Source: Acidobacteriaceae bacterium | GTDB lineage: Bacteria > Acidobacteriota > Terriglobia > Terriglobales > Acidobacteriaceae | NCBI GenBank assembly: GCA_025352065.1 | Contig: JANXUC010000090.1 | Location: 62,001-126,000, forward strand | DNA: 64,000 bases | Direction: 5' to 3' | Shown here: in pieces, positions 9,697-31,862 of the stretch | Position numbering within the stretch: the first letter of the stretch is position 1 | Layout of the letters: each line of letters starts with the position of its first letter | Translations under genes and position numbers: made by a program | The notes under the pieces: generated by a model | Databases searched by the model: none | What the model saw: the letters and a program-made list of their open reading frames with translations, nothing else | Told to the model about the DNA's origin: nothing

Positions 9697-10752
9697 CTAG
9701 GACATGACAGAAACCAGCGACTTGCCTTCCGACAGAACCTCGCCAATCTCGACGACCGGAATGCCAGCGTCTCGCAGCGCTGTTCTAAGCCGGTCCGCAT
9801 CCTGCGAGGCCACCGAAATCAGCAACCCGCCCGCCGTCTGAGGGTCGAAGAGCAGCGTTTTCAGCTCTTCGATCACGCCCGCCTCGTAAGTTACGACACA
9901 CTCGGCGAACTCTCGATTGGCCTTCAATCCGGCAGGAATGTATCCCGCCCGAATGCACTCCCGCGCGCCTTCCAGAAGTGGTATCGCGTTAGCATGGATC
10001 TTCAAACTTACCTTCGAAGCCAGCGCCATCTCCCGCGCATGGCCGATTAGCCCGAAGCCTGTCACGTCGGTAAGTGAGTGGACAGCGAAGTTGCCTGTGC
10101 CAATAATTACTTCCGCAGCAATCTTATTGAGCGTCGTCATCGAAGCAGCTGCCGCGTCCATCCACGCAGGCAACGCAGTACCTCTCTTCACCGCCGTCGA
10201 GATCACGCCTGTGCCGAGGGCTTTCGTGAACAGCAAGCGGTCTCCTGCCTGCGCGCCACCGTTGGTCAGTATTTTCTTCGGATTGACAATCCCCGTAACT
10301 GCGTAACCAAACTTAATTTCTTCGTCGCGGATGCTATGTCCGCCGACGACCGTACACCCCGCTTCGATCATCTTCGAGAGGCCGCCGGCCAGAATTCGTT
10401 CCAAAATCGCCAGATCTTCTTTCTCCGGGAAGCACACCATGGCCAGTGCCGTCAAAGGCCGTCCACCCATGGCGTAAACATCACTCAGCGCATTCGTGGC
10501 CGCAATCTGGCCGAATGTATAAGGGTCATCGACAATCGGAGTAAAAAAATCGACTGTCTGCACCAGAGCCATATCGGGCGTGAGTAGATACACGCCCGCG
10601 TCGTCGGCGTGATCGAAGCCAACTAGAACGTTCGGGTCCTGTTGCCGGGCTAATTTCCCAAGCACCGTGTCCAGCACCGCCGGACTCAGCTTGGACGCTC
10701 AACCCGCCGCTTTCACTTTTTCGGTGAGGCGTACTTTCTTCGTGTCCGACAT
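9697..10752 (-). CDS. selD: Selenide, water dikinase (selenoprotein, UGA-encoded Sec)
   Basis: SelD makes selenophosphate from selenide and ATP, the selenium donor for Sec-tRNA and selenouridine. The body matches SelD throughout (TTDFF-like VQTVDFFTPIVDDPYTFGQIAATNALSD, VVGGHS, DVTGFGLIGH, DPQTAGGLL). The true start is the ATG at 10752. Codon 18 is TGA (10701-10699), in frame, in the context KAAG-U-ASKLSP; E. coli SelD has GAG-C-GCKISP, with the essential Cys17 and Lys20. Translation as Sec gives a 351-residue protein. A start at the GTG of 10677 would remove the active site. A SECIS-like hairpin follows the TGA. Sec-containing SelD is known from other bacteria such as Haemophilus. Confidence 0.93.
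10658..10694 (-). promoter_or_regulatory. Bacterial SECIS element in selD
   Basis: Downstream of the TGA at 10701-10699 the mRNA can fold with an inner stem GUCCGGC (10685-10679) and GCUGGAC (10675-10669), one G-U pair, closed by a GGU loop (10678-10676). An outer stem CCAAGC (10694-10689) pairs with GCUUGG (10663-10658). The loop G lies about 23 bases after the UGA, within the spacing of known bacterial SECIS hairpins, and GGU is also present in the E. coli fdhF apical loop. It should bind SelB, which is not encoded in this window. Confidence 0.8.
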
Positions 10753-29737: not shown

Positions 29738-29813
29738 CTCCACGAGCCGGTCATCGTGATTGTGGACAACCTACCGGTCCTGTGGCTTGCTATAGTGGAG
29801 TGCTGGATTGGGC

Positions 29814-31355
29814 ATGACATTTAAGAAAATTTTAATCGCAAACCGGGGTGAGATTGCGGTGCGGATTTTGCGCGCGTGCCGAGAGCTGGGAATTCGCTCG
29901 GTCGCCGTGTACTCCGATGTGGATCGGGCGTCGCTGCATGTTTCAAAAGCGGATGAGGCCTACTACCTGGGCGCGCCGCCTGCGACGGAATCGTATTTGA
30001 ATATTGAGAAGATTTTGGCGGTGGCTAAGCGCGCTGGGGCGGATGCGATCCACCCGGGCTACGGCTTCTTGTCGGAGAATCCCAAGTTTCCGCGAGCCTG
30101 CAAGGAAGCGGGCATAAAGTTCATCGGTCCCAAGGCGGAAGCCATGGAGATGATGGGTTCGAAGACGGGCGCTCGGCGGGCGATGGAAAAGGCTGGCGTG
30201 CCGTTTGTGCCAGGATCGCTGCGCGGATTGAACTCCGTTGAGGAAGGCGAGCAGGTGGCGGAGAGAATCGGCTACCCCGTGATGCTGAAGGCGGCCTCGG
30301 GCGGTGGCGGTAAGGGCATGCGGCTGGTATTCAAGCGTGAAGAATTGCGGTCGGCGTTGGAGTCGGCGAAGAGTGAAGCGGCACGGTCGTTTGGCGACGA
30401 TGAGGTTTATGTCGAGAAAGCGATTGTGAATCCGCGACACATTGAAATGCAGGTGCTGGCCGATGAGCACGGACACACGGTGTATTTGGGCGAGCGCGAG
30501 TGTTCGATTCAGCGTCGGCACCAGAAGGTCTTGGAAGAAGCGCCCTCGGCGATCGTCGATCCCGACATGCGGCGTCGCATGGGCGAAGTAGCAGTCCGCG
30601 TCGCGCAAGCTGCGAACTATACGAATGCAGGTACAGTCGAGTTTCTTGTCGATCAGGAAAAGAATTTCTACTTCCTGGAAATGAACACTCGTTTGCAGGT
30701 GGAGCACCCGGTCACCGAGTTGACGACAGGGCTGGATCTGGTACATCTGCAGATTCATATTGCGGCGGGCGGCGAGTTGCCGTTTAAGCAAGAGGACATC
30801 GCGATTCGAGGGCATGCCATCGAGTGCAGGATTTACGCGGAAGATCCAGACAATCATTATTTTCCGAGCCCGGGAAAGATTACGATGCTGCTGCCGCCAG
30901 CCGGGCCTGGCATTCGTCACGACAGCGGGAGCTACGAAGGCTGGACTGTACCTATAGATTACGATCCTCTACTGGCGAAACTGATTGGCTATGGCACGGA
31001 TCGCGAGCAAGTGATTCTGCGTCTGCAACGGGCGTTGCATGAGTATTTTGTAGGCGGAATTCAGACCAACATTTCACTCTTTCAGCGCATTTTGGCGGAT
31101 GGGGACTTTCAGGCGGCGCGCCTGGATACGGGATATTTGGAACGCTTGCTGGCGCGGGAACACGAGCATGTTCTGGAGGGCATGTCTCCGGCGGAAGAGC
31201 GGGTGTCGGAAGTAGTGGCGATTGCGGCAGGGTTGTTTGCCGTGCTGGACCCAGCACCGGCGGCTTCGAATGCAGCAAGTTCCATTTCGGAAATCATAGC
31301 GAAGAGCCCGTCCGGATGGAAGCAGGCTGCGCTGCGCGAAGCGCTGAGAGGCTGA
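29814..31355 (+). CDS. accC: Biotin carboxylase subunit of an acyl-CoA carboxylase
   Basis: ATP-dependent carboxylation of biotin. The ATP-grasp fold is complete: N-terminal KKILIANRGEIAVRILRA, glycine loop ASGGGGKGMRLV, and EMNTRLQVEHPVTELTTGLDLV with the catalytic Glu, Asn and Arg. The 513 residues are longer than E. coli AccC (449); the extra C-terminal part (RVSEVVAIAAGLFAV) is typical of the alpha subunits of propionyl- or methylcrotonyl-type carboxylases. ATG at 29814 is used; TTG at 29808 is possible. The biotin carrier gene follows after nine bases. No carboxyltransferase gene is in the window, so the acyl-CoA substrate is undecided. Confidence 0.92.
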   Translation: MTFKKILIANRGEIAVRILRACRELGIRSVAVYSDVDRASLHVSKADEAYYLGAPPATESYLNIEKILAVAKRAGADAIHPGYGFLSENPKFPRACKEAGIKFIGPKAEAMEMMGSKTGARRAMEKAGVPFVPGSLRGLNSVEEGEQVAERIGYPVMLKAASGGGGKGMRLVFKREELRSALESAKSEAARSFGDDEVYVEKAIVNPRHIEMQVLADEHGHTVYLGERECSIQRRHQKVLEEAPSAIVDPDMRRRMGEVAVRVAQAANYTNAGTVEFLVDQEKNFYFLEMNTRLQVEHPVTELTTGLDLVHLQIHIAAGGELPFKQEDIAIRGHAIECRIYAEDPDNHYFPSPGKITMLLPPAGPGIRHDSGSYEGWTVPIDYDPLLAKLIGYGTDREQVILRLQRALHEYFVGGIQTNISLFQRILADGDFQAARLDTGYLERLLAREHEHVLEGMSPAEERVSEVVAIAAGLFAVLDPAPAASNAASSISEIIAKSPSGWKQAALREALRG

Positions 31356-31364
31356 GATTGCATA

Positions 31365-31862
31365 ATGAATTACGACGTTAGCGTTGACGGCAAGGCCCAT
31401 CGGCTGGAACTGGCGCGCAAAGGGGACCAGTGGGAATGCAAGCTGGATGGCCGCGCGGTGCCAGTTGATCCGGTGTTGCTGCGCCGCAACATGCTGTCGT
31501 TGCTGATTGACGGCGTCTCCTACGAGGTGCGGCGGGAACAAACGGTTTCCGGGCTGCGCTTGTCGATTGGCTTGGCGAGGTATGCGGTCGAGCTGCGTGA
31601 TCCGCGCTCCCTGCATAGTTGGCAGACGGAGAGTGGCTCCGCGGAAGGTAAGAAAAAAATTGTTGCACCGATGCCCGGGAAGGTTGTGCGCGTGCTCGTG
31701 AAGCAAGGTGCCGAAGTGCAAGCCGGTCAGGGCGTGGTCGTCGTAGAAGCGATGAAGATGCAGAACGAACTGAAATCGCCGAAGCAGGGAATTGTGCAAA
31801 AGGTAATGGCGGTGGAAGGCGCAACCGTGAACGCCGGAGACGTGTTGCTGATTGTGGAATAA
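31365..31862 (+). CDS. Biotin carboxyl carrier protein
   Basis: A 165-residue protein. The C-terminal biotinyl domain (about 98-165) has the biotin-lysine motif VVEAMKMQNEL and the mirror-image hairpins PMPGKVVRV and IVQKVMAVEGATVNAGDVL. The N-terminal part (1-70, DVSVDGKAHRLEL...) is a beta domain like the one that links the BC and BCCP parts of multidomain acyl-CoA carboxylases. It is therefore the detached C-terminal half of such an alpha subunit and works with the gene before it. Start ATG at 31365. Confidence 0.9.
   Translation: MNYDVSVDGKAHRLELARKGDQWECKLDGRAVPVDPVLLRRNMLSLLIDGVSYEVRREQTVSGLRLSIGLARYAVELRDPRSLHSWQTESGSAEGKKKIVAPMPGKVVRVLVKQGAEVQAGQGVVVVEAMKMQNELKSPKQGIVQKVMAVEGATVNAGDVLLIVE

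Follow-up and report, generated by a model that had tools for sequence, protein, structure and literature searches.

Selenophosphate synthetase of an Acidobacteriaceae bacterium: a predicted catalytic selenocysteine and a possible extended RNA fold around its UGA

Background

Selenophosphate synthetase (SelD) of Escherichia coli has two essential residues, Cys17 and Lys20. It is a Cys form that shares enzyme family and active-site layout with the selenocysteine (Sec) forms, from which it differs in having Cys instead of Sec and in needing no SECIS element. The SelD of Aquifex aeolicus, a thermophile of another phylum than the bacterium studied here, presumably has Sec as its natural residue. 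Its solved chains (PDB 2yye, 2zod, 2zau) show a similar active-site context, SGCAAK as against AGUASK in the protein described below, to which A. aeolicus SelD scores 196.9 bits by phmmer, less than E. coli SelD does. Sec-SelD as a kind has long been known, and its existence in other bacteria, which an earlier note on this DNA had mentioned, is borne out by published surveys: Sec occurs in 19% of detected prokaryotic SelD genes, always at this position (PMC4561486), and SelD is the second largest prokaryotic selenoprotein family (PMC13188914). According to Zhang et al. 2006, Sec-decoding bacteria that lack FdhA all have Sec-SelD, and most of them have the selenouridine trait (PMC1794560). For one acidobacterium, three known selenoprotein genes have previously been listed (PMC12013277); a literature search with most subscription journals outside its reach returned no paper on a selenoprotein-rich Acidobacteriota genome. 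Here, Sec-SelD is firmly supported for a member of the Acidobacteriaceae, and two modest new points are added, namely a predicted fold that encloses the UGA and a set of candidate redox selenoproteins.

The selD locus and its active site

The DNA analyzed (the window, 64,000 nucleotides) is part of contig C80 of a 4.25 Mb genome in 183 contigs, 98.5% complete; a plasmid search and an Rfam scan of the whole window gave no match. On the minus strand, the ATG at 10752 opens a frame with a single in-frame TGA (10701-10699, residue 18) that continues to a TAG at 9699-9697 (Table 1). The product matches the SelD equivalog model TIGR00476 with 374.8 bits (cut-off 125) and NF002098 with 325.5 bits (cut-off 299), contains two AIR-synthase-related Pfam domains and matches solved SelD chains, in agreement with the claim of the earlier note that the frame runs through the TGA into full-length SelD. 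Its closest named relatives come from assemblies of Terriglobales and other Acidobacteriota, a phylum that the earlier note had guessed correctly. The active site, AAGUASK, aligns with GAGCGCK of E. coli SelD (PDB 3u0o), which places the TGA at the Cys17 position, as had been proposed, and Lys20 is kept, giving the UxxK arrangement of a catalytic Cys or Sec with Lys three residues on. The locus thus resembles bacterial Sec-SelDs (UxxK, TIGR00476), with a predicted catalytic Sec, the Lys, a bSECIS just downstream and Sec machinery in the genome. We consider it almost certain, judging from these and the comparative data below, that selD encodes a selenophosphate synthetase with a catalytic Sec, the UGA at residue 18 being recoded via SelB and the downstream hairpin.

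Table 1 Features of the selD locus and of other candidate selenoprotein genes. Coordinates are window positions unless a contig is given
Feature	Coordinates	Strand	Basis or remark
selD coding sequence	9697..10752	-	351 residues, predicted Sec at residue 18; frame, profile match and E. coli alignment
In-frame TGA read as Sec, E. coli Cys17 position	10699..10701	-	frame; alignment; 94 TGA / 6 Cys in 100 distinct loci
GTG, start of table-11 ORF, removes active site	10675..10677	-	not conserved as start; majority codon in relatives GCG
Apical bSECIS hairpin, 7-bp stem GUCCGGC/GCUGGAC, loop GGU	10669..10685	-	folding; bSECIS score; family pairing
Middle helix, 7 bp, UCCAAGC (10695-10689) with GCUUGGG (10663-10657)	10657..10695	-	92% of cells paired; mean pair probability 0.79 in family
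Predicted outer helix, 8 bp, CGGGUUGA (10706-10699, includes UGA) with UUAGCCCG (10653-10646)	10646..10706	-	98% paired; ends match limits of synonymous constraint
Candidate peroxiredoxin-like/SelL-related gene L159	C14:281-661		TGA at catalytic Cys position
Candidate peroxiredoxin-like/SelL-related gene L161	C93:42475-42846		TGA at catalytic Cys position
Candidate peroxiredoxin-like/SelL-related gene L162	C108:53573-53974		TGA at catalytic Cys position
Candidate peroxiredoxin-like/SelL-related gene L171	C69:12358-12651		TGA at catalytic Cys position
Candidate deiodinase-family gene L173	C180:488-838	-	PF00837 101.5 bits, motif FGSYTUPPF
Candidate AhpD-like CxxU gene L179 (CDYUL)	C162:8139-8387		family match and motif
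Candidate AhpD-like CxxU gene L181 (CPYUL)	C74:22160-22396		family match and motif

Under translation table 11 an open frame begins at the GTG of 10677, and standard gene calling thereby misses the active site, as the earlier note had foreseen. This would fit a TGA that is a real stop or a sequencing error, with a truncated SelD starting at the GTG or another downstream start. Such a short form would be without the catalytic residue and Lys20, however, and comparison with relatives speaks against it: SelDs of relatives align through the TGA, as predicted from the single sequence, the peptide upstream is conserved (RLTExVKAAGU, where U is codon 18), and an internal start at this GTG was rejected because the codon is not conserved, GCG being found in most relatives. 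Of 100 distinct SelD loci, 94 have TGA at codon 18, five have TGC and one has TGT, with no other codon. This degree of conservation makes truncation or error very unlikely, close to negligible. The in-frame TGA is thus aligned with Cys in homologues and recurs as TGA in other organisms, the pattern by which selenoproteins are recognized.

Sec machinery and SelD across the family

The claim that this genome encodes SelA, SelB and tRNA-Sec, the set required for a bacterial selenoprotein, held up. The tRNA-Sec with anticodon UCA (tRNA-SeC(tca)) was found on contig C166, a SelA gene on C35, and, roughly 65 kb away from selD on C80, a SelB above cut-off; this SelB combines the GTPase with the SelB-wing_2 and SelB-wing_3 domains, i.e. 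the SECIS-reading winged helices. selD, selA, selB and selC are scattered in the genome without an operon.

Among 200 genomes of the family, 92 have a TGA-bearing SelD and 20 a SelD without the TGA, and, as far as the sequences tell, Sec-SelD is common in this family of soil bacteria. SelD and SelB occur together in 100 of these genomes, SelD only in 12, SelB only in 8 and neither in 80 (Fisher p ~6e-33, kinship ignored). A SelB over cut-off is absent from 10 of the 92 Sec-SelD genomes, most of the ten being incomplete assemblies; completeness is high in G091 (99%), G154 (97%), G076 (97%) and G028 (96%). The genomes with SelB and no SelD match are G006, G062, G104, G106, G117, G144, G174 and G197. 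These, and the fairly complete Sec-SelD genomes without SelB, may reflect assembly gaps or something else.

A quick tree requires Sec and Cys to have replaced one another four times or more. A second SelD group, about 60% identical and without the TGA, is encoded no more than a few kb from selB (G069, G039, G128, G071, G140, G168, G190, G185, G141), in contrast to the scattered selD and selB of the genome described here. Apparently one SelD of each kind, with and without TGA, is present in G047.

The SECIS hairpin

Downstream of the TGA, the apical hairpin begins at 13 nt and its loop at 20 nt; the earlier note had correctly described a seven-pair stem with a GGU loop and had set its start too far away, at about 16 bases. 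The published bSECIS rules specify a loop of 3-9 nt, a stem of 4-16 bp, a G in the first two loop positions and a distance of 16-37 nt from the UGA (PMC13188914), and the loop GGU, 7-bp stem and distance of 20 nt all lie within them. The bSECIS energy limit is a minimum free energy of at most -7.5 kcal/mol; an 81-nt region here gives -36.5 kcal/mol and the 66 nt from the UGA -24.1, values that belong to the region and not to the hairpin alone. The SECIS hairpin claimed from inspection is thus consistent with the published description.

By itself the hairpin was set aside as weak evidence, since one as good or better is found at 42 of the 1790 TGAs in the window (2.3%); the fold z of the selD SECIS region is -2.45, and an equally stable fold is reached by 5.4% of its synonymous recodings. 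With the hairpin alone so unimpressive, the case for an RNA element rests on conservation, and in the aligned sequences the TGA codon, the peptide before it and the synonymous sites are all conserved far beyond chance. The apical stem is paired in 100% of cells in 48 distinct family sequences. Beyond the family, the inner hairpin is conserved in part, this register being paired in 76% of cells.

The Cys forms of SelD provide a comparison: the inner helix is paired in 100% of cells in the Sec forms of the family and in 57% in the Cys forms, and the inner hairpin is gone from five of the Cys forms. The sixth (L117, C57:12373-13416 of genome G175) has TGT at codon 18 with the whole SECIS sequence intact and SelB in the genome, and for these reasons reads as a recent Sec-to-Cys change. 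The near-identical context around its Cys codon would also suit a read-through of the UGA by ordinary suppression with another amino acid, e.g. Trp or Cys, the inserted residue being one that the sequence alone cannot tell. Against this stand the full Sec machinery of the genome, the co-occurrence of SelD with SelB, and a bSECIS-like structure that UGA forms retain and older Cys forms no longer have, and we consider insertion of a residue other than Sec highly improbable. The family offers a comparison set in which the need for the extended SECIS discussed below can be tested directly: the RNA element is frozen in dozens of UGA forms, still intact in one recent Cys form and lost from older Cys forms.

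From the computed frame, homology and machinery genes, the conservation of UGA and peptide, the RNA constraint in UGA forms and the hairpin loss in older Cys forms, we infer that Sec is inserted, that SelB binds and that the enzyme is active. In translation, the UGA of codon 18 would be recoded by the Sec-tRNA-Sec that SelB carries, SelB binding the apical loop of the hairpin. The selenophosphate produced by SelD would be used by SelA to make Sec-tRNA-Sec, and SelD would therefore both supply Sec and depend on it. The same supply would serve the further redox selenoproteins predicted in the genome, of which there are at least seven.

An extended fold around the UGA

The second stem reported in the earlier note is present as well, with seven pairs rather than six, and forms the middle helix of a larger predicted structure; the outer helix below it lies partly outside the coordinates given in that note (10657-10752). 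The consensus bSECIS model (bSECISearch) differs from this fold, in which two more predicted helices lie below the apical stem-loop. Compared with other bacterial Sec-SelDs, the locus is set apart by a predicted fold that encloses the UGA and by a near-total freezing of synonymous sites to about +56 in the family. In 54 Sec relatives, codons for the same residue agree in 85% of pairs at codons 19-39 as against 44% at codons 61-345, and codons 23-36 are synonymously near-frozen, including the rare Leu codon TTA at codon 34.

The selD recoding signal of the family may be a three-tier SECIS, enlarged to about 61 nt, with the UGA fully paired to the rare Leu TTA; its opening would gate or tune recoding, as a feedback on selenium supply. 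We offer this model tentatively and regard it as rather doubtful. More tentatively than the steps outlined above, the outer helix, pairing the UGA with the Leu UUA, might shield the UGA from release factor 2 or set the efficiency of recoding. The frozen synonymous sites from +33 to +56 might instead belong to another mRNA or DNA signal, a conceivable though unlikely explanation that concerns the extended fold only and leaves the Sec reading untouched. It would be in keeping with a middle helix whose 3' arm is frozen and whose 5' arm varies, and with the absence of the extended freezing from clades outside the family; because the outer helix pairs are near-invariant, covariation cannot support them and speaks neither for nor against this helix. 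On the other side, the synonymous constraint stops at codons 16-17 and 36-37, where the predicted outer helix ends, the helix has a mean pair probability of 0.86 in the family (above 0.5 in 96% of sequences), and older Cys forms have lost the outer-helix constraint.

Other predicted selenoproteins of the genome

The earlier note had suggested a search for further in-frame TGA genes, with fdhA as its example. Formate dehydrogenase was rejected as the main Sec user, as no PF00384 match of the genome contains a TGA. For selenouridine synthase nothing in the genome exceeded the cut-off, only a fragment of 21.9 bits being found, YqeB of the Se-cofactor route is absent from the genome, and none of its thioredoxin and DsbA family matches contains a stop. 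A scan of the window for further read-through genes, at thresholds that also missed SelD, yielded only 29808-31862 (plus strand), where the TGA that ends a biotin carboxylase is followed a few codons on, in the same frame, by a biotin-carrier protein; these were judged to be two ordinary genes.

Other TGA genes did emerge, with at least seven candidates of thioredoxin-fold and AhpD-like type. Five PF00578 and two PF02627 matches in the genome have one TGA each, at the expected position of the catalytic Cys (FTGGU, WUPFC, TPTU, YGUIFC, SYTUPPF, CDYUL and CPYUL). By motif, and by family match in searches with C substituted for U, they are similar to peroxiredoxins, SelL-related redox proteins, a T4-deiodinase-family protein and AhpD-like proteins (Table 1). 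In the deiodinase-family candidate, the TGA corresponds to the residue that is the catalytic Sec in the motif of animal deiodinases. Together with SelD, the seven candidates would make at least eight selenoprotein genes, above the six that define a selenoprotein-rich organism (PMC5029168), and this soil bacterium is apparently selenoprotein-rich without a Sec-containing formate dehydrogenase or a selenouridine synthase. It fits the Sec-SelD rule of Zhang et al. 2006, but apparently does so without the selenouridine trait (PMC1794560). Gene callers that apply table 11 would remove the active site of SelD and would break up or shorten at least seven further redox genes.
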